Program-made: the position numbers and the translations under genes
The notes under the pieces: model-generated
What the model was told of the DNA's origin: nothing
What the model saw: only the letters and a program-made list of their open reading frames with translations
Database searches by the model: none
In this document: in pieces, positions 1 to 59,800 of the stretch
Layout: each line of letters begins with the position of its first letter
Position numbering within the stretch: position 1 is the first letter of the stretch
Source: Pegea sp. RAD2-039
Lineage: Eukaryota; Chordata; Thaliacea; Salpida; Salpidae
Direction: 5' to 3'
Assembly (NCBI GenBank): GCA_034620365.1
Contig: JAQGEQ010000171.1
Location: forward strand, 331,615-395,614
DNA: 64,000 nucleotides

Positions 1-160
1 TTGGTTTAAAAACTTGAAAATTTGGATAATACAGGTTTGAAAATAAACTTTTTAAACTAAATTCTATGGTAAAATAAATACAATTTTCCAGAAAAGAATT
101 GCTCCTACTCTGAATAATAATTTGGAACATGGAGAGATAACTAATTTATGAAAACTAGAA

Positions 161-1010
161 ATATATGTGAAGTATCAGTCATCATATGATGTTACAAATG
201 TTGATGTGAAAATTGTAGTTAATAATTTGTAAAACTGTTTATTAATCATTCGTATTTTTGTATCATCAGTTTGTTTTTTTTTGAAAAGTTTGCTGTAAAA
301 GATTCGCCTTACTTAAATGATATAGAAATACAACTTCATGTAATAAAAACAAAACTTACAAAAACAATTTGAATCAATTTATTTTAAGAGTCTTCCTTAC
401 ATTATTCCTTATGGTAATTTTCAAGCAAAGTTTTTAATCTAGAGTCTTGTTTGTTGTCATAAATGGCAAAGATTGATTGAAAGCCAAATACTTGATGAGT
501 AATCTCTTAACTCAGAGGCATGACAGAGGCCCCACGAGCTGGATGGATTCATTTATAGAGTTTAATCGAAGAAACGAAGTTCTTTCGCCAGTTTATTACC
601 GGGTATCAATCCAATTTAATAAAAAATATAATTAACGGACTGCTTAACCGAGTACGGCTATAAGGATTTTAAAATTCTTTCTCATATTCGAAGTTAGTTT
701 TTCATATCTACCCTTCAGTGGTTCGCGGAGTAGAGAGCTCCATAAGCAGCGATATCTTCTTAATTGTCGATATCAGTGTAGAGTGATTTCATATCGCGCT
801 TGCATGTATCTTTAAAACAAAGACAAGGACTGCTGATGTTACATATGCGGTTTGATAGCTTCCTATACAAAATTTCTTTGGGATCTTTCTGTTTTCCATC
901 CAACGAATGTGTCCAAGACAGCGAAACACTTGCTTGCATACTATGCTGTACGTGGTATTATTAGTGTTGAGTTATTTCGTATTGCGTTTGCATGTTTCCT
1001 GCATGCAGGG
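161..1010 (-). mobile_element. LINE 3' fragment, copy A (RT C-terminal relic)
   Basis: Read on the minus strand, about 730-1000 translates, with stops, to pieces typical of the end of animal LINE endonuclease/reverse-transcriptase proteins: GHIRWMENRKIPKK, then FKDTCKRDMKSL. Positions 161 to about 815 are almost identical to 9333-9988, with only a few substitutions, and the two copies share the same left end. Beyond 815 they are still related but clearly diverged. No intact ORF remains. Seen: the shared sequence and peptide fragments. Known: the G-H-x-R-M...R-x-P-K and FKDxCKRD motifs are common in RTE/Jockey-like LINEs. Inferred: the left edge is the 3' end of the element. Confidence 0.75.
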
Positions 1011-3460
1011 TCTGCTTCAGAGTTTTTTTGAAATCAAAATCTGTTTTCTGAAAATTCGGAAGAAGTTATAAAGTATTATATGGTATAAAGAATTGTTAAG
1101 AGTCAACATGAATAAAAGAACATAACTCTGACGAACTCCACTAGTGATTTGAATAGAAGTTAGTACAGATCTTTCAAAGTTAATGAACGTGCCTACTGTT
1201 ATTTATACAATGGACTTCTTTAAACTGTAACGTTTGGCTGAAAGAATGGTCTTCGCGTTTGTGCGCTAAAACGAAGTGAAAAAAGAAAATTTGGTCCCAG
1301 TGGTAATTTGCTACTTTCGTTGTTTGAAAAAACCTTGACAATTCTTAAGGCCCATGGGGAGATTCGAATTTTTTACTTGAAATCAGTTGGTTATTCCTTC
1401 TGATTTCTGTTATATGCTTCTTTCGGAGGATATTTCTATTGTAGGCAATCATCGTTACGCAAATTATGTGCTACTCTAACACGCTCGAATTATTTGCCAA
1501 GCTTTAGTCTATTAAGAATGGCGAGAAACTTGCGGTTGCTTCAATTGTTCTGAAAGGACACTTTCAATGGTTCCTGATAATCTGGAATCTCACCTTCAAG
1601 TTTGGTCAAAGATACTTCTGGAATGTCCACAAAATCAAAGTGTTGAGAATATCATTGCAAATTTTAGTTTTGGCCAATTTAGCAAATATTTAATTGCTGA
1701 TGTCGAATAGAAACTAGGAGAAATATTTATCGCGCTTCATTGCCGGATTCTCAACAGAACAAGTTTTGTTTCACGATTGGCAATCGCTATAACAAACTTA
1801 TTTTATTAAAGATTGTTTGTTAGAAATGGACTCTGATTTCTGCACACTACAATGTAGATTCTTGCTACGTTTACTTTAGTCCACCACAATTTTTACTTTC
1901 ATCTAAATAAATAGAAACATGAACGAATTTTCAGTTTCACCAAACAAAAAAAGTTAAAATCTATTCTTTATCCAAATAAAATAATTTATCAAAAGCAATA
2001 TACAAATAATTACTAAAAGTAATTTTATCACGACTTATAAGCCCTATTCAATAAAATATAACATACCTAGAAAAACTTATTCAAATATAACATCTATAGA
2101 TCAAACAAAGGTAAGTTGTACACATTAGATATGTATAATGATAATACTACTTTATATAAAGGTTTATTCTAATTATTAAGAAGACGACTAAAAACAATGA
2201 TATGTATGCTAACGATATGCGATACTCCTCAACATAGTCTATTACCAAATGATAACGACTGACGAAAGAAGGACGTTTAACACATTTACGTCAGCATCAA
2301 AATACTTTACTATAATACCACATTCTCTCGAATCCAAATAATTGGATCGAAAAGTATCCATGCTGTCTTATTATGGTCATTTACGACAATTAGTCCCAAC
2401 CGTATCGCTTTTGAGTTACACCTTTAAATGATCTGGTAAACTACCGAACGTCTACGCCACTGTTTATTCTGTTTTTCGTGCTGCCTTTACCACTCCTAGT
2501 AATCGAACCATCAAAGCTCGTTGTCATTTCCTCATTGGAAGCCTAGACACTAGGTTAGTCCCTCTCTTCATCCTCTTCAGATTAGTGAGAATGTTGTCAT
2601 CGTGATTCTCCCTCATATCACTTGGTGATACCCGTAACGACTTTATTACACCGTCACTGAATAAACACCAAAGTCCTGTTCATCAGAATTTGGGTATCCA
2701 GCTAGAATCCTCGAAAAAACGTTAGACTCTCCGCAATCAGGATAGCGGACTCGTGCGTACATCGTGTTTGCTTCCAGTAGATCAAACTACTTTAAACTAT
2801 CATCATGATATTCATTGGCTAGAATAAAAAGGAACCTTTAACATCTCTTCTTCTTAGATGATAGTACAAAGCTCTTTTTATGCTTAGCAAACCTATTTCT
2901 AAGACAACTGTCAATAAGAAAGATCTAACATTTCTTCAAAAAAAATCAACTTATTTAAAAAACTAATTTATTACAAAACAAATAATCTTCTTCTTATTTC
3001 TTAATAATTTTAAACAACTAATTAATAACATTAATGGAAAACTACAATTTATATATCTATTTTTAAAAGTTGTACATCTTGAAAATATTTGTTATCGGTC
3101 CTTTTTTAGTGAAACCCACTCTAGGATATTAGAGACAAGTTTAAATAATTTGCTTTACAAGAACTAACTGAGATGTTAGCTAATATACACTTTATTTTGT
3201 TTCATTGAATTTTTGTGTAATTTATTTCACAAATCACGTCATAATAAATTTTCATGATGCTTTAAACAAAAAACTTTCAAATCTTACGATAAATGTGGAA
3301 ACTTTAAAAGTAACTTAAAAGAAACAGATAAAAAAGAAAATTTGAAAAACAAGATTTCCAACTTTCAAGCATGCCACTATTAAAAAATCTCATGCCTCTC
3401 TTAGTAGATAGCTTAGAAATTATATCCAATAGTTTCAGATATAATAATTTTTTTTTACAG
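1010..3460. other. Gene-free, repeat-rich stretch
   Basis: No exon-like coding was found. About 1740-1960 is similar to 5725-5985 (see the repeat entry). About 2450-2800 is less AT-rich than its surroundings and looks like old repeat sequence, but no reading frame could be followed through it. Confidence 0.4.
1740..1965. repeat. Interspersed repeat of unknown type, copy 1
   Basis: This stretch shares ordered blocks with 5725-5985: ATTGCCGGAT, AGCAAGTTTTG, AAATGGACTC, GATTCTTGCTAC/GATTCCTGCTAC, then a similar run ending in AAACAAAAAAAGTT. Small indels separate the blocks, so it is an old duplicate or two copies of one repeat family. No coding was recognised. Confidence 0.6.
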
Positions 3461-3463
3461 ATT

Positions 3464-4520
3464 TTAAACTTTTTTCTCTTCTTCTGGCTTGAAACTAGAT
3501 GGAAAATCTATTATTGATATGTCAACTTGAGGAATATACCTTCTGGTAGCATAAACAACCTCCTTTCTTGACATCTTCTACAAAGCATTATGGTTTTAAT
3601 ATCATATTAGTCTTAGATTCGTCTTTAATTATTATTTTTCAAAATTTTCATAAATATAATTTTCTTGCTTTCAATAAACTTTTAAAACTAACCCAATATT
3701 TAAAAAAAAAAATTAAAAAAAAATATGAATGAAAAAATACCATAAAAGCTTCAATAAATTTAGTTTAGTTTATAAAAAAGAAAGTAAACAAATGTTTCAT
3801 AAAAGTGTAAACAAACAGTTTAGCAATTTATGAAATATAGTTACATCTATTTCCATTATCAAAGCTTTAATGAACTTACAACTAATAAATTTCCATATTC
3901 ATTTAAGCTGTATTCAATCAGCAGATCTTCAAAATTGCGAAACTTCATGTTTTGAACCACCTTTTTTTCTTTTGGAAGATATGAAGTAGAAGTCTAAAAA
4001 TATAAATTTCATTAAATGATTGAATTAACATCAAAAAGTTATGTCAAAGCATTAATATTAAATTTACCTTTCCAATATGAGAACTTGATAAGTTTTGAAA
4101 TATTAGTTTACTTTCTTTTGTTGGAGGAAATAATTGACTGAGACTATTTATAAACTTATAAATGTCATCTGATTTTTCACCAATGATCAATAGTTCATCC
4201 ACCATCATTGTTCCAATGATTTCTAGATCAGAAAATTAATTGATAATCAAGCAATATCACTTGCTTTGTGTTACCCCAAAAAATATTCTGAGAATATAAG
4301 AAATATGAAAGAAAATCATCTCACCATCATATCCTTTCCTAGTTTGATAATTTGCAGAACTACATAATATCCATTTACCAATAAACAAAGAATATTTCTG
4401 ATTAATAACAACTTTAGAACATTTCTTCTCTTCTTCTTCTTTCTTATGAACTTTCAAATCATCTTCATCAAGTCTTTTCAGACTACCTAAACTATCTAAT
4501 ATGGTGCTTAAAGTATTCAT
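3464..4520 (-). CDS. Unrecognised 192-residue protein, four exons
   Basis: Exons 4520-4325, 4222-4068, 3993-3880 and 3577-3464 join in phase (579 bp) from ATG to TAA with consensus splice sites. The protein begins MNTLSTILDSLGSL and has a basic/acidic stretch at about residues 25-37. Next comes a hydrophobic core (YSLFIGKWILC, then GTMMVDELLIIGEKSDD), then KFRNFEDLLIEYSLNEYGN, and a C-terminal part with VVYATRRYIPQVD and a lysine-rich end. No signal peptide or membrane segment is evident. The regular exon structure and conserved-looking core argue that it is real. I could not assign a family and do not give a function. Confidence 0.72.
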
Positions 4521-4529
4521 AATCACAAG

Positions 4530-7500
4530 TATTGAATAATCCTTGAATGAAACATATAAGTATCAATTTAAACTATTAAACCTAATGAGCCGAAATGGCC
4601 ATTGCATATTTAGATATACAATTAAATTAATCTAATAATCATACTTTTATTATGCTTACTTTATTTGTTTATATTTAAATATGTATAAACAAATTAAAAT
4701 TTTTTATTACACTTATATCAAAAAAATGAACCTAAAATAAATAACTTGACACATTTGTTCAAAGCTTTGTATAAATAAATGCTTGCTTTTCTAAATCTAC
4801 TAACTTTCAAATATAATCAGCCAAGTCATAAACAATGTTAAAAAGTAAAAAATTGTGAATAAAATTTAGGAGGAAATTTATTGGTATAGTTGGAAGTAAA
4901 TATTATAAAAATAAAATCTTATTTTATTAAGAGTATAGAAAGAAAAAAAGATGAACCAAAGCTATAAACAAAGTTTGTAAATCATTAGACTATATAGGTT
5001 TTAAATCAGAAAATAAAAATAGTTTTAACAAACTCCAATCGTTGATCAATGAAGAGGCCTAAGCCTTCTCGATGCAATAAAAATAAAAATGAAGACAAAA
5101 GAAACCACAATCCTTGGCTTGATTAGTATGAGCGTTTTCTAATTAATAAAGTTGAATTTCGTAAAGAAGAAGTATTCTTTAGTTTAAAAACTTTCGATAG
5201 CACAGCTCCATACTATCTACAGGGCAATGTTCAGATAAAATGATTCGGAACGTTTTAGACTTCAAATGAACTCAAGTTCAGTACCCTAAAAATCCAAATT
5301 CATTGCAGAAAGCGATTTAATTTTTGAATAGGGATAAATAATTTAAAACGGTCTTTTTAGTTTTTATGAGTAAATAGAGATTCCTGATCATGAATATCAT
5401 TAAATAAATAGAAAGATGTAATCGGCTCAAAGCTACATTGGTGTGTTTTGATATTACAATAACTGGAGATAACTTATTAGATTAGATACAAAGGGTTTAT
5501 GAAATTCATCGGAAATTCGTATAAGGCAAAGTTAACATTAACATTAATTATTGCAAATTTCGGAAATCAGATTCGAATTGAAATTTGAGGAGGTAAGTGT
5601 TTCGTCAATGGCTCTACGGTTATTGTGAGAATCATTTAAAACCAGTTGGCTTCATCATTAATATTTCATGAAATCTTTTGTTCACTTCGATAGAGATGAG
5701 ATGAACCAAGGGGAGGCATTAATGAAACTCTATTGCCGGATCCTCTTTAGAGCAAGTTTTGATTGATAATCTCCATTACAAGTTTGTGCTGATAAAGATG
5801 GTTTGCCAAAAATGGACTCGAAATTTTGTATACTAGAATTTGGATTCCTGCTACTTTTATCAGGGCTCATCACAATTAATCATAAGCACGTGGTTCACTT
5901 GATGACAGTTTTTACCTTCATTGATTTAAATAGAAACGTCTAACAAAGTTTTTTTCACCATTGATTTTTAGTTTAACAAAACAAAAAAAGTTTGAATAGA
6001 TTTTTGACCAAATATTTTAGTTCATTTCTAGTAATATACAAATCACTCAGTATAAACAATTTTTTCACAACTCATGCTTAGCCTTAACAATAAATATAAC
6101 CTTAAATTAAAAAACCTTATGTAAATATACTTGGATGGCAGTAAAATATTTTGCCGCTTACGTTAATGAGTCAATAACAAACTCTGTTAGAGATAGACGT
6201 TTTTGGCATTTATCATCTTTAAAGCTTTTGGATATTATATAACTGATGATTATATAAACAGCAACTGAAAATAAATTTTATGGCTTTCAAAGTTATCAAA
6301 AAATTTACTCGTCTGTTTCAGCCACTCGTGTAAAGTACTAGTTGTTAGGAGTTGTCACGCTAAAGTGGAGGAAGAAACAGATATTATATTTCATTTGTAA
6401 CCAATACTTTATAATAAAGAAAACAACTAATTTTATATTTGACTATGCCAGCAAAATGATAAGGAAGATATCTCATAGTTTTGGAAAAGTTAGTAAGTTT
6501 AAATCATTGACAAAATGATAAATGGAGTTACAAACGTTTTCTGAAATATATCTGAAATTTGTGGAAGACAAAGTCTTGACTTTAAACGACTCCAGTATAT
6601 ACCAGTATATGATGACATATATTTAAATAAATTAGATGGTAGTAATGTGTGGGTTCAAGCCCAAAAAACTAACAGCAAAAAATTGGAAAAGTTACCAGAT
6701 ATTTTGTACTTCCTAAGAATTTGCACTAAAACGGAATTTTTGTCGGAGAAGAAGCACGGAGTCAAACATAGAAAGTAAGATAAATTTGTTGTTTTTTTAT
6801 TTACCAGCAAGCCTTATAAATGAATGCAAAATATAGAAATAATTATCTTCAAAGAAACAAAATACTTGAAGAAGAAAAACTTGATTGTTAGATTAATTAG
6901 ATGAATATTTTATTTTATCGAGCATTGTATGAGAAAGCATATATCTAGCTAGTCGTCAGTGACTCTATTTTCATAAGCAATTTAATGCTCGTAAACTAAT
7001 AACTTATAAGAAAAATAAATTGCAGTAATTAGCAGTAAGCAAATTCTGTAGCAAGTTTGGCAGTTTATAAATGACATAGTGAACTGCAGAAACAAAATAA
7101 CTTTAAGTAAATTTAGCATTTTGAAATAATAAATCTGGAAAAAGTATGAACACTACGGAGGCATAAATAAATACAAATTTTTAATTAAAAATACATTTAA
7201 AGCAGAGAAACGAGGAAACTAACAAAGTTTCCATCGTTATGGAATTCATCTATTATTATTCTTAAGTAAATATATTCAACAATAGTATTCCAAGGACAAC
7301 ATAACTTGAATATCCATTCAGATGTAAATTATTATCAAACATTTTTTAATGTATATTTGCAGAAACTGTGCTTGAATAATTGAAATTTTTTAACAAATAC
7401 TGCAGAATTAATATCTGTTCACAAATTTAATAGAACTTTTTTAATTAATGAACTACTACGAAACAATTGTCATAGTGATGTCATAATTGATCACATCAAC

Positions 7501-7560
7501 TGACTAACTTTTTCAACTTTTTCACTAAATTATATTTTGATCCTGAGGAGTATATATTTC
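4530..7560. other. Intergenic stretch
   Basis: Mostly AT-rich sequence with no recognisable exon. It holds the second copy of an unknown repeat (about 5725-5985). The last 100 bp lie just upstream of the ARL13B-like start, but no promoter element stands out. Confidence 0.5.
5725..5985. repeat. Interspersed repeat of unknown type, copy 2
   Basis: Counterpart of 1740-1965 with the same order of short matching blocks. This copy carries a small extra segment (about 5880-5920). Its nature is not known. Confidence 0.6.
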
Positions 7561-7563
7561 AAA

Positions 7564-9332
7564 ATGAATAAACTTATTAATTTTTTTCGACCAACACGGT
7601 AAGACTTAATCTGATAAAGACTTCTATAACTGACTAATTATAATATTATTTCAGTGAAATCTCACTTCCTGTAGTGGGTCTGGACGGCAGTGGAAAGACC
7701 ACACTAGTGAATAGGTTGGCTGGCTTGCCAGCTTATGACGATATTCCTACGATTGGTTTAAACACTGTTTTTATCAAAAAAGGTTTGTAGTGAAATATTT
7801 TCTCAGTTTTGATACACAATTATCGATTTGATGCTAATAGGACGTTATGATATCAACTTTTTTGACTTGGGTGGTGGAAAATCTATCAGAAATATTTGGA
7901 AAAGTTTTAATGCTGAAGCTCATGGTATAGTCTTTGTTTTGGACTCTACGAACCCATTTAGACTTTTAGAAGCTAAATCTGCTTTGCAAGAGCTTTTGAC
8001 TGATGACCATTTGAAAAATAAGCCGATCTTAATGTGAGATAAGCCATTTATAATTTACTATAAAATTTAATTAGTAACATTTGCTATAAAGAATTGAAAA
8101 CTTAATTGAATGAAGTTAAGAAGTTGTTTTTCTATAAAATTTGTTTTGTTTTGCAGCTTTGCTAATAAAAGTGACCAAAAAGAATCTATGACTAAAAAAC
8201 AAGTTGAAATTTGGCTTAATTTGGATGATCTCTGTAAAAATCATCCTTACCAACTGGTAATGAAAATTTTTGTTAATAACTTTTAATTTAAGTTTTATTT
8301 TACTTCGAAATAAACTTTAAAACATATCACAATTTTAGATTGAAGAAAGCTAAACGATGTAAACTCTAGAGATATTTAGAAATCGAAATAAAAATTGTTT
8401 GTTTGATTATGTATAAATTAAAAATCTATGTAAATTTTGTATTTATTAATAATATTCAAATCATTTAATAAAAGGTACGAGCTTCTGCCACTGAAAAGCG
8501 ATCAGTAAATGGTGGAATAAGATGGTTACTGAAAAGTATTGCTAAAAAGTATGAAATGTTAGAGAAACAAGTTGCAGAAGATGCTGAAAAGATAAAGAAG
8601 ATGATTAAGAAGGAAAACGCTCTTAGAAAAGAACGAATTAAGAAGATAATTGAAGAGAGGTTAGATTGAGTTTTAATTTAACATTTTTGTTTGTATGTAT
8701 ATCGATTATATGATTTCAGTGAAGAAATAGTTGAGAATGCTGAAAAACCAAAAATCAAAACTAGCAAAAAGTTAGAATCTACCGAGGGAACGTTGACAGT
8801 GAATAAGAAAAAGTTGCAACCAACTCTGGAAAAGTTGAAACCAACTCTTGAGAAGTTGGAACCAACTCTTGAGAAGTTGAAACCAACTCTTGAGAAGGTG
8901 GAACCAACTCTTGAAAAGGTGGAACCAACTCTTGAGAAGGTGCAACCAACTCTTGAAAAGGTGGAACCAACTCTTGAGAAGGTGGAATCAACTCTTAAGA
9001 AGTTTGAACCAACTCTTGAGAAGGTGGAACCAACTCTTGAGAAGGTGGAACCAACTCTTGAGAAGGTGGAACCAACTCTTGAGAAGTTTGAACCAACTCT
9101 TGAGAAGTTTGAACCAACTCTTAAGAAGTTTGAACCAACTTTTGAGAAGTTTGAACCAACTCTTGAGAAGGTGGAACCAACTCTTGAGAAGTTGGAACCA
9201 ACTCTTGAGAAGGTGGAACCATCTCTTGAGAAGTTGGAACCAACACTTGAGAAGGTGGAACCAACACTTGAGAAGGTGGAACCAACTCTTGAGAAGGTGG
9301 AACCAACTCTTGAAAAGGTGGAACATATGTGA
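7564..9332 (+). CDS. ARL13B: ARL13B-like ciliary small GTPase with 24-unit repeat tail
   Basis: Six exons (7564-7598, 7655-7782, 7841-8033, 8157-8256, 8475-8659, 8720-9332) join in phase to 417 residues. Residues 20-28 are the P-loop GLDGSGKTT. Switch II reads DLGGG, as in ARL13B, where the usual catalytic Gln of Arf proteins is absent. ANKSD is the base-recognition motif. A charged coiled coil (KKYEMLEKQVAEDAEKIKK) follows, as in ARL13B. Human ARL13B acts in the ciliary membrane in Arl3 activation and Hedgehog signalling. Odd features: the N-terminus (MNKLINFFRPTR) lacks the palmitoylated cysteines of vertebrate ARL13B, and the tail is a 24-unit heptad array. The TGA stop directly abuts a LINE relic. 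The GTPase identity is secure; ciliary function is inferred. Confidence 0.9.
8339..8392 (+). other. Possible alternative terminal exon of the ARL13B-like gene
   Basis: A good acceptor (AATTTTAG, ending at 8338) would join exon 4 in phase to five codons, ATT GAA GAA AGC TAA. AATAAA follows at 8387-8392. Use of this site would end the protein after the GTPase fold and remove the coiled coil and repeat tail. Seen: the site, in-phase stop and signal. Inferred: that it is ever used. Confidence 0.3.
8815..9323 (+). repeat. Coding minisatellite, 21-bp unit
   Basis: About 24 direct units of 21 bp (for example GAACCAACTCTTGAGAAGGT plus G) lie inside the last ARL13B-like exon and encode the heptad V/L/F-E-P-T-L-E-K. 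Variation between units is mostly at the first residue (V, L or F). The period is a multiple of three, so unit gain or loss keeps the frame. Both strands are open in several frames here because of the repeat; those frames are shadows. Confidence 0.97.
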
Positions 9333-32445: not shown

Positions 32446-36946
<4,501 letters not shown>

Positions 36947-37639: not shown

Positions 37640-40575
37640 TTTCAATGTTTCCAAAAGCTGATTTCTTTCATTCTACCTAAATCTAATATCCGAAATCAAT
37701 AAATCAATATTCGCTGAATTGTCCAAATTTAAATCTAAAATTAAGAAAAAATTTCTGAATAAATGGATGAACAAGATGCCTCTACAAAGAAACATGTTAC
37801 ATGGGCCTCGGTGGTTGGTGATTCCGATTCCGACAAAAGTTCTAGCATGTTGCAGTTTCTTGCCAAGAAGGTCACCGACACGCACGAAAAACTTAATTTG
37901 GACCGTGAGGACAGAGAAAACAATGTCATCATCTTTAATGTCTCTGAGACTGATAAAGTTGATGACAATAAATTTTTTAATCAAATATGCTGTCAAAGTC
38001 TTAATTTTGTGGGTATTTCAAAGGTATCAATGATCAGACTTGAAGCAAAAAGCTCTGATCATCAAAGAACGTTGAAAGTGTCCTTTCAGGAAAGTTGGGA
38101 CAAACGCAAGTTTCTTGCCAAGCTGTATAGGCTAAAACTTGACAAAAAATTCGAGCGAATTAGAGTAGCGCATGATATGTGTGAAGATGATCGCTTAGAA
38201 AATAAGCGTCTTCTCAAAGCGGAGTATAACCGAAATCAGAAGGAACAACCAACTGATTTCAAATAAAAAGTTCGAGGTCCACCACGGGCCTTGAGAACTG
38301 TCAAGGTTTTTTAAAAAAACGGAACGGCAAATAACCACTGATCCCACATCTTCTTTTTTCACATTATCTCCGGATACAATTCTGAATACCACCCTTCCAG
38401 CCCAAGATATCAATTCATAGAAGCCCATTATCATCAAATCTAACAAGCGTCAAAAAGACAATTCTTCTATTATATCAGGTATGTTCTTTAACATCTGGTC
38501 TATTATTAACAACAATTTCCAATTGAAAGCTTTTTTGTATTCTTAAGATTTCACATTTGCTTTTATTACTGTAACTTGGTTGAAACCGTTTTATCCTGAT
38601 TCTTTTCCGGTTGACAGTAATCCTTTTTATGTTTTACAATGTGACAGACTTTATGATAGAAGCGGCGGTGTTTGCATAATTTACAAAACATCGATTGCAC
38701 CCAAGATCTCCAGAATTCAGATCGATACCATTAATCGTCCAAGATTTGAGATTATGACTTTCAATTTTCATTACTCAAAGTCCAAATTTTCTCGTTTTAT
38801 ATGTACCTACCTAATACCCTCTAAAACTAATGATGAGGTTACTATTAAGTCCCATTAAAGGTTTTGAAATGTGTTGTGTGTCCTGAGTTATATGCTTTGG
38901 GGGATTTTAATTTTAGTAAAATTGATTGAAATAACTTGAATTCAGCATTTATGGTAAAATCGTTTTACTTAGATAGCGACAATCCTAATTCAGCCATTTT
39001 ATGTCATACCTTTGCAAGCTTCCTCGATGCCAATAACCTATCTCAGATGGTTACTTTTGCAACCTGAGCTAGTGGTAATACTTTGTATCTTCTTATCACA
39101 TCAAACCCTCAAACTTAAAAACACCTCCCTTGCTTGATAACAGCAGCCAGATTGTGATGCAACCAGAGAATAAAGCTGAATTGTTAAACAATCAATTTAA
39201 TAGCTTCTTTCTTTTCTTACTCCGATATTCTTGCAAATGTCTCTGAGATCATCGATCTTGACATAACGGTCGATATGGTAGCTAAGGCTATTTTGTTTTT
39301 AAAATCATCAGTTTCAAACACCCCTGATCAGATCCCTGCTTTGTTTTTAAGAAAAAAACAATTTCCTGTTTGTCACTACCTTTATCACTACTCTTTAAAA
39401 TCACTCTGAAGTGAGGAGGAGTTCCACAAATTTGGAAGAAAGCTATCATTACTCCTATTCATAAAAAGGGTCTCAGAAACACTGCACTTAACTACAGACC
39501 AGTTTCGCTGACTTCAGTTATTTGCAAAAGTGAAGAACATATCATTCAAAATCATATGACAAGTCATTTGATGAAGCACAATTTAATATCTGATGTCCAG
39601 CATGGCCTTGTGAAGCGGAGATCTTCCCAGACTTAACTCCTACTTTTCCCAATGAGTTTACATCCCATTATGAAAGTAATACCTTTTGTAACATATATCT
39701 CGATTTTGCTACAACGTTTGATTCTGTCCCACACAAAAAGCTCATTATTGTTTTACAAAGTTTAAAAATCAATAGCTTTATCTTAAAGTAGATTGAAGAT
39801 TACTAATCAGGTAGAATTTAACAAAATCCTATTGAAAGATCTTTGTCTACTCCTAGTCAAGTAACCAGAGATGTTCCTCAAAGTTCCGTTCTGGGTCCTC
39901 TTCTTTTTTTAAATTTTCATTGAAGACCTCATCAGAAGATAAGTAGCAGTAGATAATGTCAGTGTGTTTGTGTATGCTGATGATATCAAGCTAGTATTAA
40001 ATACGATAGTTATAAACATTGTATTAGCTTCTTAAATTTAGATACTTTGGAATTTTGACAGGTTAGATACGACTTAATTCTTATTCTAAAAATTGCACAC
40101 TACTTAATTGATCTTCAGTTCGATGATTTCTTTTCCATTAGACCTTCCCTCAAGTTATATCAACTCAGATGACACACGTTACATCTTAATAAGCCCATAT
40201 AACCTGGTACATTAATGAGATTGAATTTTTTCTCAAACCGCACAATTAGTACTTGGAACCAGCTGCCATTAGACATTGTCATGTCAGAATCAATCGTGTG
40301 GTTCAGGCAGAAGTTGAACCGTTATAATAATTCCAACATTGCCATTTCTAACCTGTGATTTTTTATCTTTTTGTATATCTAGCATTCTATGTAGTTGTTC
40401 ACTGCTATATAATATACTTTGAGGACTACTGAAATACCATATATTGCATCTTTTGGTTTCTATATTTCTAACTTAATATGTATTATTCGTGAGATTGTGT
40501 GTTAGTGAGAGATGCTCTCTTCAGGCACCCTCCTTTACATTTGTTGTAATAAATAAATAAACAAATAAATAAATA
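37640..40575 (+). mobile_element. Decayed CR1/Jockey-type LINE, near full structure
   Basis: An ORF1-like frame (37763-38266) comes first. Fragments of an ORF2 follow: an endonuclease-like part near 38600-38860 (FYVLQCDRLYDRSGGVCIIY); reverse transcriptase from about 39420 (GVPQIWKKAIITPIHKKG, ALNYRPVSLTSVICK), with the catalytic YADD-type motif VYADDIKLV near 39970; and a 3' end with AAATAAATAAAC-type repeats at 40547-40575. ORF2 is broken by many stops and shifts, so it cannot be active. A 5'-truncated relative lies at 15720-16334. Confidence 0.88.
37763..38266 (+). CDS. LINE ORF1-like protein (167 residues)
   Basis: An open frame starting MDEQDASTKKHVTWASVV. The segment LDREDRENNVIIFNVSETD resembles the R-x-x-N-V-V-I-F-G-x-x-E sequence that opens the RNA-binding domain of CR1/Jockey/L2 ORF1 proteins, and WDKRKFLAKLYRL fits later in that domain. 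It lies just upstream of ORF2 fragments of the same element. It is intact as a frame but shorter than many ORF1 proteins, and its partner ORF2 is dead. Confidence 0.7.
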   Translation: MDEQDASTKKHVTWASVVGDSDSDKSSSMLQFLAKKVTDTHEKLNLDREDRENNVIIFNVSETDKVDDNKFFNQICCQSLNFVGISKVSMIRLEAKSSDHQRTLKVSFQESWDKRKFLAKLYRLKLDKKFERIRVAHDMCEDDRLENKRLLKAEYNRNQKEQPTDFK

Positions 40576-53882: not shown

Positions 53883-56800
53883 GTAAGTTACTTAGATTTA
53901 AACAAATAGGTTATTTTTTAAAGATATTTTTCATTTTCAGCAACTGATGATCCAAACGACCAGCTTGGTATCTCAGCAACCACTGCTATCTACACAAGCA
54001 CCGATCTTCCCACTGAACAAACTGGCTACTGTATGACTTGGGGTCAACATCATTATCGAAGTTTCGATGGAAAGATTTATAGATTCCAGGGAGATTGTTC
54101 ATACACATTGGTAGAAGATAACGAACATTTCATATCAGTTGTTTCACACAATACTAATGTTTGTTCTGTTGGTCGATGTCTAAGGTATTGTATAAATAGA
54201 ATTAGCTTTCTGAGCTAAGATGAATATATACTTTGAACTGCAGGAGTTTGTCGATCTTTGTGAGCGATTTGATCATTGAACTGAAAAGAGACAGTTTTGA
54301 TGAAATGCCAAAAGCATATGTAGACGGTCAAAGTCTTGGCTTGCCTTCATCTATGTCCGGTGTCCTTATCCAACGAGTTGCTGATTTTATTGTGGTCCGC
54401 GATCCAGATACCGACTTTTACGTTAAATGGGACGGTGTAGATTCAATTTTCGTCCGGGTAAGTTTTATTTGCCAAACTAAATTGTCTGTGCAGTGATGGA
54501 TGATGTTGATCAAGGTTGGAGAAGACCACATCGGTAAAACTCGTGGATTGTGTGGAGTGTACGATGGAAATGTTGGTAATGACTTCACTACTAAATCATC
54601 AGCGATTACTTCAACAGTTGAAGACTTTGCTAATTCATGGGCATACGGATGTAAATCTTAAAAGTAATACTTTCTTCTTTATTCTAATCGTGCTTCTTCT
54701 ACAGCATGTGGAAAGACATCATCACACACTTACTGCTCACGAGCAACTGAAGACGATCGAAGAATAGTTGCAACTGCTCTACGCGCTTGTCAATACTTGA
54801 TGGACACATCTTGTAGATATGTGAGTAGTTTCTACTAAATGCTTGATGACCAGATAAACAACTACTTGATTACAGGTTGTCAATCCTGTTCCATATTTTG
54901 AAGCTTGTAAAGAAGATGTTTGTTGGAGTAAAGATGATGATAGTGTTTGTAGTTCTATGGCTGCTTATTTCCGCGAATGTGCTCGCTTTGGAGTGATTGT
55001 AGACTGGCGAGAAGAAGACAGATGCAGTGAGTCTTCTAGATTTGATGACGTCATTCTGTTTTGTAATTATATCTTGCTTTCAGTGATCACTTGTCCGGGT
55101 AAACTATCTTATGATGTTTGTGGAACTTCTTGTCCAAGAACATGTTTTGATACAAGTTACAATTGTGAAAATGATCATTGTATCGAAGGCTGTCATTGTC
55201 CATCAGGTACTTGCCTCAGATATTTAATATAAAACCAAAAAAAGTTATTTTAAACGATCAAAATAACCGTGTCATGATTTCATGAAAATAAATGTATTTT
55301 TTTTATTGTTTAATAGGAACTTATCTTCACAATGGAACATGTGTGAAAAGAAACGAATGTCCATGTCAGTTTGGAAGACGTGAATACAGTCCTGGGTCGA
55401 AGATTCGTCGCGATTGCAATCGATGGTCAGTTTCAATTTAAATCACTCTTAATTAAATAAAATCATTTGTAGCGTTTGCGCCCGTGGTCGTTGGGTATGT
55501 ACAAGGAACTTATGTGATGCAGTTTGTAAATCAGTTGGAAACCATTTCACTTCATTCGACGGTAAAACCTTTGATTTTGCTGGCAAATGCAGCTACACCT
55601 TGGTTCGTAGCAGTGGTGTTCAGGATATCGCCTTTGAAGTTGTGTTGATAAATACTTGCACGTAAGTATGCTACACTAAAACTAACAAATTAAGCTACAA
55701 CAAATACCTGATTATTTGTTATTACCAACAACAGACAAAACTATTGTGATCGATCAGTTAAAGTGTTTGTGAATAATGAAGAAGTTCATATCATGAAGGA
55801 TGGTAAAGTTGAGATCAGAAACAAAGAAGTTCTTCTACCTTACCACACTTACTTTTATGCTATGGAGAAAGTCACCACAACATTCTTCAAAGTATTTTCA
55901 TTCTTGAGACGATCAGTTTTCAGATGTTGACAAATACCGAACTTTTGTGTGCAGTTGACTATCAATAATGGACTAACTATTTTGTTCGATGGTAAAGACA
56001 GTGTTTACATCAGAGCCACATCAGACTTGTCTGGACGTATGGGAGGTATTTGTGGAAACTTTAACGAACAAACTACAGATGACTTCTGGACAAAGAATGG
56101 AGATATCGCTACAAATGAAAACGATTTTGGAGATGAATGGTGAGTACAAAGTTAACATTTATAGATAAATATAATCTTTTTCTTTTTTATTGCAGGGCTC
56201 ATGGGGAGTGTAGTGCCCCAGTTACTAATCCAGTTTACAGTAACCCATGCGACAACAACTGGACTTTCAAGTCAAAAGCTCGTGAAAGTTGTGAAGTTAT
56301 CACCGCTTCACCATTTACAAGTAATTTTAAACTTATTTTAAATAGATTAATTTAAAAAAAGAAGTGTTTAAATATAAGTAAAACTTTCAATCATTAACTG
56401 CAAGAGACAATAGATAACAAAATTTCATATTTTAGAATGTCATGATGTCGTAAATCATAAAATCTTCTTCCAAAACTGTATGGATGACGTTTGTACTTCT
56501 AGTGATATTAAATCACAGTGTCGATCGCTTGCTGATTATGCAATGGCTTGTACCAAGCTTGGAGTAGTTCTCGGCAACTGGAGAGAGAAAGTACACGAAT
56601 GCGGTGAGTTGAAATTTACAAACATACATTTGAGTTAAAACAAAAATGCTTTTTGTCACAGCTGCAGAGATTCAATGTCCAGCAGGAACCATCTATAAGG
56701 AATGCGCAAATGCTTGTGGGTCTTCTTGTGGAGCTCTTCAAAGTAGCTCTGTGTGCAATGAGCAATGTGTTCCTGGATGTACATGTCCTTCCGGACAGGT

Positions 56801-59800
56801 AAACATCTTTGAACTGAAATTTACTAACTTAATATATTTACCATTTTTATTTGATTTAAAAACTTGTGTCCAGGTCTTTGACTACACTGGTCACTGTGTG
56901 AATATCCCTCATTGTTCTTGTATGTTTGAAAACGTCATATATGAAGCCGGCGAATCAAGAATGCAAGATTGTAATGTTTGGTGAGCCCTTAACCTTTCTC
57001 TAAATTTAAATATTAAAGATTTTTTGTTTTTGAACAACTGAACAAGTTATCTTTTAATCAATTTTTATATGTTGAAAATGTTTATGCGTATTACAGTGAA
57101 TGTCACCATGGGACCTGGGCCTGTACAGATAATGTTTGCCCTGTCAGTACCAAATGTCTAGTGAATGAGGAGTTTACAAGCTGTATGAAACCAGAAATTC
57201 TCACTTGTAGCAACATGCACCTCCCAAAAATAAATAGAAAGGTGAAATTATCAATGAGTTTGATTGATTATAAAATACATTATGATATTAATGTACTAAA
57301 AATAAAATAAGTTGAGAATATATATTTCAACTAAGATGTTCAAGTTTTTTAATCCATAAACAGGTAAACCATTGCATTGCTGGCTGTCAATGTGTTACTG
57401 GGTTTGTTTGGGATGCAAGCTCTTCAACTTGTGTGACTCCGAAAACTTGTCCTTGTTATCACGGAGGTAGAAGTTACGATGAAAGTGAAACTATGCAACA
57501 GGACTGTAACACATGGTGAGAAAATTATCAACATTAAAGAATGCGTGGATAAAGAAACATAATATTAATTTCAGTTTTTGTTTAACTTCAAATGTTCTTC
57601 TCACAGTCGTTGTTTATCTGGCGTATGGCAATGTGAAGAGAATGAATGCGCTGGATTATGTAGAGCATACGGTGAATCACATTACACAACATTTGATGGG
57701 AAAAACTATCAATTTACTGGAATCAATACTTTTACATTTGTTCGATCAACTGCAGAAAATCCACATAAGTTTCAGGTTTCAATCGAAATGATTTATTTTA
57801 TCCTTTAAGAAAATATATAAAGACACTTTTTAGATAAATGTTAAACTTTTTTTACTAAGTTTATTACAAGCTGCAAGTAAAGCAGGAAAATTTATGAAAA
57901 TATATTTCAAATAGATTTCAATTGAAAATGTGGCCTGTGGTAGTTCTGGAGCGACTTGCTCCAAAAGAATTATCTTTTCCATTAACCTTGGTGATGCTGC
58001 TCGTGAAAACAGCGTCGAGCTGGTGAAAGGTAAAAGTGTTCAACAAAGAAAAGTGAGTTTAACTTGTTTAGTTGTAAGTTTCAATCAGTAATGACTTATT
58101 AAATATACACAGATTGGTAGCTTTGATGTTTCATATGTCGGTCTTTGGATATTTATAAGAGCTGTTGATATGGGTGTAACACTTCAATGGGATAAAGGAA
58201 CTACTGTAGTTGTTCGTGTTGATCCTGAACATAAGGGAAGTGTTGAAGGTAACATTGTTACAACTGTACAATTATATCAAAAAACTTAAATGCAATATGT
58301 TACTTCATAACTTCTAACTATCTCTAAATTAAGTTTTAGTGATATTCACATAAAAGCTTAACTACAAACGAGTAAAATACAATGAAAAGAAGCAAGTTTT
58401 TATTGCTACTAATGTTTTCATTTATTATTTTACAGGTCTGTGTGGTAACTTTGATGATAGCGAATCAAATGATTTCAGAACACCTCAAAATATATTTGAA
58501 GCCAACGAAGTTTTCTTTGTTAATTCTTGGAAGGTAAAACTTTCTATTAAATCTAAAGTAAATTCTACCTAAAAATAAAGCTGAGGTTTTAGTCTTCACC
58601 TTTGAGTGACAGTAGTTTAAGCATGATTCATAATTTCATTTCAGACATATGCAAACGGAACAAGTGCAGAGGAATCTGATGGGGATATTTGTGCTACAAA
58701 TAGTCATCGAAAACATTGGGCTGATAGAAAATGTTCAGTTTTAACAAGCGAATTGTTTGAAGTAAGTCTTTTGATACGAAAAATACTTAAAAATTAAACA
58801 TCAATCACAGTAGAAATAAAATTATTTTAAAAATGATAAGCATTCAGCAGTTACAGAATTAATTGATAACTTATTTCAGCCTTGTCACTCGCTAGTTGAT
58901 CCACGAAGTTACCAAGCTGCTTGTGTCTATGATGCTTGCGCTTGTAACTCTGGTGGTGATTGTGAATGCTTCTGTACAGCTATCCATGCTTATGCACAAG
59001 AATGTAACCGTCGCGGTGTTCACATCTACTGGCGTTCACAGTCTCTTTGTCGTAAGTAGCATAGTAATTAAAAGCTGCTTGCTCCATTACATTTTCGCAG
59101 TTAGTTACTAACAAAAATCCTTTTTCAGCTATCATGTGCTCTGGAATGAACCGAGATTATACTCCATGTATGTCTGCATGTCCGAAGACTTGTGATAACT
59201 TCAACAGTTATGATCGAATCAAGAGCAATTGCGAACTTAGCTGCGTTGAGGGTTGTACTTGTGGAGAAGGAACAGTGAGTGTAAAATGCAAAATATATTT
59301 TCAACTAGTTTGTTATAACTTATGAAATATAAAATCAATATATAAAATAACTACGATTTCTATAAAGCTTAAGCTAATTATTACAGCTTGCATTAACTTT
59401 TTGTATATAAATTCAAGCTTTAAACTAAGAGTGTTTGTTGACGTTTTGGCTACAAAACCCTGTTTTTGTGCAGGTGGCAACACATGACGGTGAAGTTTGT
59501 ATGCTAATTGAAGAATGCGTTTGTAAAGAGATTGAAGGAGTTAATTATGGTGATGGAGAAAAGATTGAATCGATGTCAGATCAGTGTAGAAGCTGGTAAG
59601 CAACAAAAGATTTATTAACTTTATACTTAGAGAATTGAACCGATATAAACTACTAAAATTATTCAAGTTATTGTATGGATCACGAAATATCATGTCTCGG
59701 ACTTCCTTGTAACGAAGGTGGTCTTGTTCCTCTTATTTCAACTGGAATTGGTAAGTAATGTAATTACCTCAATATTGTTAATGTATGAAAATCTTTTGAT

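Follow-up and report, generated by a model that had tools for sequence, protein, structure and literature searches.

The tail of repeated seven-residue units that ends the ARL13B-like gene in the window (the whole stretch of 64,000 nucleotides analysed, C5:331615-395614 of an animal genome of 105.7 Mb in 387 contigs) is most likely a spacer or stalk and is unlikely to be a multiplied ciliary address. Our preferred reading, to which we give a probability of about 0.6, is that the array is a coding 21-bp minisatellite serving as a length-variable spacer or weakly multivalent stalk on a derived, amplified ARL13 paralog, and that its K-V-E-P strings are not a multiplied ancestral RVxP. In the scheme that we propose, the gene belongs to a derived ARL13 paralog that was amplified recently, and the 21-bp minisatellite in its final exon would encode a tail rich in Pro, Glu, Lys and Val/Leu behind the GTPase domain, probably acting as a spacer of variable length or as a weakly multivalent stalk. 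A Leu-to-Val codon change (TTG to GTG) would have spread by repeat turnover within an older L-x-P array and produced K-V-E-P, and the ancestral RVxP would not have been multiplied, being held by a separate exon in the canonical paralogs. The copies on C5 would be expressed and the derived proteins may have changed their location or partners.

The window gene, copy D, is one of four near-identical copies on C5, the others being A, B and C. It was modelled from GT/AG boundaries and the open frame as six exons encoding 417 aa. Its features, in window coordinates, are as follows.

1..9201, unstranded: the part inside the window of the palindrome arm that holds copy D (self-comparison)
7564..7598, plus strand: exon 1, N-terminus MNKLINFFRPT(R) with no Gly2 and no Cys (open frame, GT donor)
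7655..7782, plus strand: exon 2, P-loop GLDGSGKTT and switch I (AG/GT boundaries, open frame, Pfam Arf)
7841..8033, plus strand: exon 3, switch II DLGGGKSIRNIW (AG/GT boundaries, Pfam Arf, alignment to CrARL13B)
8157..8256, plus strand: exon 4, NKSD guanine-specificity motif (AG/GT boundaries, Pfam Arf)
8475..8659, plus strand: exon 5, end of the G domain and charged C-terminal helix (AG/GT boundaries, aligns to the matching part of CrARL13B)
8720..9332, plus strand: exon 6, the last of the model, with linker, heptad array and stop TGA (AG acceptor, open frame)
8814..9317, plus strand: heptad array of 24 units, commonest V-E-P-T-L-E-K, 12 of them V-x-P (TRF, unit table)
9318..9332, plus strand: array end, VEHM and stop, where the unique end of about 50 residues of copies A, B and C is absent (3' ends of the four copies compared)

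The array is confirmed as real. TRF reports it at 8811-9324 with 24.5 copies, 92% matches and a score of 804, against 71 for the runner-up among the 15 rows found in the window, and the unit table places 24 full heptads in frame at 8814-9317 in the predicted last exon, which closes with the TGA at 9330-9332. The first slot of the 24 units holds V 13 times, L six times and F five times; 12 units read V-x-P, one of these being V-Q-P, the remaining V unit is V-E-S, and Pro is present in 23. The original prediction had described a tail of 24 heptads with about a dozen V-x-P and L or F in the rest, and its counts and coordinates were correct, with at most one base of difference; the spacing of three that it gave for the hydrophobic residues holds, and a spacing of four occurs as well. 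Pfam matches on the array (DASH_Duo1 and others, among the best 25 of 85 families) were weak and were set aside as low-complexity.

The sequence relationships of the protein support membership of the ARL13 family, in agreement with the ARL13B-like label that the gene had been given. The best solved relatives of residues 1-231 are 4m9q, named only as an ARF-like GTPase, and 5di3 chain B, the nearest solved relative named ARL13B, both at E about 1e-38, and an ARF-type G domain is present (Pfam Arf, E 3e-40). At least six further ARL13-like genes, and in addition one pseudogene, are present in the genome. Copies A, B and C account for three of the six; the four loci beyond the C5 copies are C10, C11a, C11b and C3. 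Full models were obtained for C10 (717 aa), C11a (310 aa) and C11b (400 aa), with residues at some exon junctions uncertain in the first two, and an exon 1 of identical 35-nt length and phase was modelled in copies A to C, C11a, C11b and C10. In a tree of 13 rows, rooted for drawing only and with CrARL13B as the single external ARL13, CrARL13B and the seven paralogs group apart from five other ARF/ARL rows of the genome with support 98/94; L004 and L008 (no frame under the filter), L007 and C3 were left out. Within the group C10 lies outside C11a, which lies outside C11b, which lies outside C5 copies A to D, the forks having ultrafast bootstrap values of 93 to 98%. The P-loop Lys is kept in all seven aligned paralogs, as are R and W at switch II Arg77 and Trp80 (Cr numbering). 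The C3 locus (L033, C3:1737500-1744500) is close to the window gene and looks like an ARL13-like pseudogene: no start codon was found where one is expected, the tail frame is closed and the place of the switch II Trp, outside the seven-paralog alignment, reads Cys. About one heptad-like unit can be made out there by eye. A one-piece ARF-like frame, L006 (C49:151881-152372), has a switch II, DAGGGKFIRNLW, reminiscent of ARL13 and falls outside the ARL13 group in the tree, with a very long branch.

Copy D shares with ARL13B/ARL-13, the exchange factor for ARL3, its G domain, the charged C-terminal helix and the switch II Arg and Trp, and differs from it in having no N-terminal Cys, in R194Q, K210N and Y83F (Chlamydomonas numbering), and in ending with a heptad array in place of a detected exon-7 VxP. 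The C10 protein begins MGNC; an N-terminal Cys is absent from C11a, C11b and the C5 copies, the first Cys of copy D being residue 145. According to passages of PMC8358228 a putative N-terminal palmitoylated Cys occurs in about half of ARL13 sequences, so it is not strictly a defining feature of the family. At Y83, R194, K210 and R213 (CrARL13B numbering) C10 reads Y R K R, the C5 copies F Q N R, C11b V Q N Q and C11a F K L K, so that only C10 among the seven aligned paralogs keeps all four; R216 is kept in C5 and C10. The site of F53 is Leu in all seven, and even C10 therefore differs at the exchange surface. Passages of PMC4868535 describe salt bridges from K210 and R213 of ARL13B to ARL3, an inactive K210E/R216E double mutant, R194C as a Joubert-type change, a minor effect only for Y83A alone, and a marked loss of exchange when F53, there the most important switch I residue, is changed. 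Copy D thus appears to miss residues implicated in ARL3 exchange, two of the residues having apparently changed on the derived branch. Lineage-specific change outside the ARL13 G domain has precedents in the variants with DD_RI_PKA, TUDOR and EF-hand domains recorded in parts of PMC8358228, and in these, as in copy D, it is the part outside the G domain that is altered; they differ in that the best 12 of 19 passages of that source contain neither a heptad array nor an animal multi-copy cluster. No repeat-tailed ARL13 was found among the literature matches listed, as judged by title and the start of the abstract.

The VxP of the canonical paralogs has an exon to itself. C10 (K-V-K-P) and C11a (R-V-S-P) have a homologous exon 7 in which a basic stretch is followed by the VxP (E about 1e-7 in both directions). 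The two exon-7 peptides detected no such exon by tblastn in the 92.6-kb region around the C5 array genes, and none was detected in 7 kb around C11b. The idea of a hidden exon 7 downstream of the array genes was dropped, the best tblastn match having E 0.02 and the best matches lacking V-x-P where the motif should be; an exon 7 that has diverged might be missed in this way. The original prediction had named a separate conserved RVxP and unrelated tails in related species as evidence that would speak against a multiplied signal, and this is largely the arrangement within this genome, C10 and C11a having the separate homologous VxP exon and other tails. At the DNA level the V units of the array (8814-9329) read AAG|GTGGAA, which weakly resembles the consensus of a 5' splice site; tblastn detected near the array genes no downstream VxP exon that it could serve.

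The 88 units of the four C5 copies were analysed slot by slot. Slot 1 is hydrophobic in every unit (V 46, L 30, F 10, I 1, M 1), slot 3 is P in 85 and S in three, slot 5 is Leu, Phe or Val in 84 and slot 7 is K in all 88. Nucleotide diversity points the same way: piN is highest in the V codon, at 0.309 compared with 0 to 0.170 in the other six, and piN/piS is 0.89 for the whole unit, 0.59 without slot 1 and 0.39 without slots 1 and 2, values that are rough since homogenisation of the array blurs per-codon tests. From these counts and the codon diversity it follows that the hydrophobic residue, the Pro and the Lys are kept and that Val as such is not. A working VxP signal would conserve both Val and Pro, and here only Pro is conserved. 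In the sister array of C11b, slot 1 is Leu in 13 of 13 and slot 3 Pro in 11 of the 13 units taken, a count that leaves out looser upstream units, one of them with Ile; C11b has no V-x-P at all, and its DNA unit agrees with that of copy D at 17 of 21 bases (0 of 1000 shuffles). At the start of the C5 arrays, units one to four have TTG in slot 1, and so Leu, in 15 of 16 cases, compared with TTG in 15 of 72 later units (TTG vs GTG, Fisher p 7e-7, the units not being independent). Because the C11b units taken are uniformly Leu and the first four units of the C5 copies nearly so, Val looks derived and young within the array, the direction of change from Leu to Val being one that we infer, and an L-x-P array with a later spread of GTG would be the simplest account.

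Some features of the array pull against our preferred reading. Val is in the majority in B (16/28) and D (13/24) and near half in A (9/19) and C (8/17), and Lys precedes every V-x-P in the four copies, which brings the string near to R-V-x-P; a newly selected VxP is possible. Slot 1 is also fully hydrophobic and Pro nearly fixed, a regularity beyond what a pure spacer would require.

The most direct use of the Val units would be as an amplified ciliary address, in which K-V-E-P units work as VxP signals and replace the exon-7 VxP and the lipid anchor, bringing the proteins to cilia. The K-V-x-P string occurs 12 times in copy D and 9, 14 and 8 times in A, B and C, and the array genes lack the N-terminal Cys and show no exon-7 VxP in the search. 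In the sources, VxP is a functional motif of ARL13 in both mouse and worm, and in mouse, by the account in parts of PMC7075693, the motif is RVEP and V358A keeps ARL13B out of cilia; a passage of PMC7860134 terms the working of VxP in ARL13B unknown. However, Val is the least conserved slot and the older units look Leu, C11b has no V-x-P, the array lacks the basic stretch that precedes the VxP of C10 and C11a, and, as stated in passages of PMC5409180, 58% of mouse proteins contain VxPx strings, which do not predict ciliary proteins. The string turns up in a second protein of this genome as well. A 438-codon open frame from base 1566 of L047 (C44:488000-491500), matched in the repeat protein search, is AP endonuclease 1 (best solved relative 2o3c, APEX nuclease 1, E 1.9e-102) and carries eight consecutive K-V-E-P heptads (K-V-E-P-S-E-N) in its N-terminal tail. 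APEX1, a repair enzyme of the nucleus and mitochondria, is not known to be ciliary. It serves as an internal control: since it carries eight K-V-E-P heptads, their occurrence in the genome is not bound to ciliary proteins. Compared with the known RVxP motif, then, the array resembles it in having K-V-x-P 8 to 14 times per C5 copy and differs in its unconserved Val, the missing basic stretch and the sharing of the string with APEX1. An amplified ancestral VxP was rejected as the leading reading on Val variability, Leu-first units, C11b, APEX1, the missing basic stretch and VxPx frequency, and we regard working K-V-E-P addresses as improbable. Thus the spacer among the options that had been offered for the array gained support, and the multiplied ancestral VxP lost it through the separate VxP exon, the unconstrained Val, the 13 Leu units of C11b and the K-V-E-P of APEX1. 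More generally, VxP strings within repeats are weak evidence for ciliary targeting.

The spacer or stalk that we prefer is carried by a gene that has been copied recently. Copies A and B are on the minus strand and C and D on the plus strand; A, B and C precede the start of the window, C ending within its first ten bases. By self-comparison C5:331118-340815 is the inverse of C5:313746-323435, with 98.35% identity over 9705 bases. Exons 1-5 differ from those of copy D at 0 (A), 3 (B) and 5 (C) of 641 sites and the introns at 4, 8 and 7 of 515. Unit number is 19 in A, 28 in B, 17 in C and 24 in D, and so varies between A and D despite identical exons 1-5; an in-frame tandem unit whose number differs among four copies of one genome is what characterises a coding minisatellite. 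A unique stretch, without a Pfam family at E up to 10, follows the last unit in A, B and C and is gone from D. The array has GGAACC and the 3' UTR of A to C has GGAACAT; the junction in D is GGAACAT, so its end may have been lost by a microhomology deletion.

It is conceivable that copy D, or even the palindromic cluster as a whole, arose as a by-product when the gene was duplicated and its minisatellite grew, and has no function or is not expressed. Copy D has lost the unique C-terminal end of the other three, the C3 paralog looks like a pseudogene, and most of the few G-domain changes that separate the C5 copies alter the protein (0 synonymous and 3 nonsynonymous between A or D and B; 1 and 4 between A or D and C). 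Yet each of the four copies keeps its open frames and GT/AG sites, exons 1-5 do not differ between A and D even though their introns differ at 4 of 515 sites, and dN/dS of the C5 copies against C11b, C11a or C10 is 0.26-0.33, within a range of 0.15-0.35 for exons 1-5 between C5, C11b, C11a and C10. Pairwise comparisons of this sort pool changes from a long history, and several dS exceed 1. The dN/dS range speaks for past constraint on the gene, and the predominantly amino-acid-changing differences among the C5 copies give no sign of present constraint on them. We consider a by-product very improbable.

The regular slots raise the question of structure. Alternatively, the array could be a docking or oligomerising stalk that is multivalent, with a hydrophobic a/d stripe and exposed prolines, a curved helix or coiled coil that associates with itself or binds a partner repeatedly, and in which V, L and F are interchangeable. 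If L is a and V is d, our own assignment, the heptad Pro falls at the exposed position f. The hydrophobic slots 1 (88/88) and 5 (84/88) and the similar pattern in C11b fit such a stalk, and AlphaFold2, run on the single sequence of the exon 6 piece, predicts helices at 29-129 and 134-201. These helices count, with middling confidence (mean pLDDT 69, the five models spreading widely from 38 to 69), against a purely disordered spacer; in our judgement single-sequence models over-read regular repeats. With the same middling confidence, helices predicted despite the prolines count against the earlier view that a normal coiled coil is unlikely. Against the docking stalk, a Pro every seven residues normally breaks soluble helices, and unit number is unequal between copies; we hold this reading possible but doubtful.

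A bolder proposal, which we regard as speculative, is that a branch of ARL13 has become a new multi-copy GTPase family that shed the anchor, the ARL3-exchange residues and the old VxP, and that a growing hydrophobic-x-Pro stalk would act as a multivalent targeting or assembly device in which the rise of Val re-created K-V-x-P by convergence. If so, one genome would contain a natural series, from the near-canonical C10 through C11a, without the N-terminal Cys, to the heptad-tailed C11b and C5, without the VxP exon, and this series would let the ciliary and exchange roles of ARL13B be tied to its parts.

Under the preferred reading, the nearest known likenesses of the array are coding minisatellites and tails of the PEVK type, titin PEVK being a low-complexity tail of this kind. 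The array is likewise an in-frame 21-bp repeat of variable number, rich in Pro, Glu, Val and Lys, and the genome has other period-7 open frames; it differs in its regular hydrophobic slots, being more patterned than a random linker. A common DNA core of the period-7 arrays was considered and rejected, since among ten other loci only C11b matched strongly. The APEX1 and L050 units agree more weakly with that of copy D (13/21 bases each, shuffle p 0.011 and 0.005) and the other seven loci have shuffle p from 0.06 to 0.55; all but C11b were picked by heptad queries and so form a biased sample, giving no genome-wide rate. Long 21-bp arrays, some of them open in more than one frame, were also seen at L055 (C77), L056 (C19) and L058 (C29), with an open frame of up to 990 codons at L055. 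Searches of the genome for COX1 and for the nematode and arthropod cuticle families gave no match, the cuticle families being silent in the control genomes too. Open frames neighbouring copy D match SRCR, C8/TIL, WD40-type and LRR sequences, a set that would suit an animal. In the window itself, a SRCR domain frame lies at 32446-32796, C8/TIL domain frames lie at 54870-56984, and a frame at 37763-38266 resembles LINE ORF1 by eye (no Pfam match).
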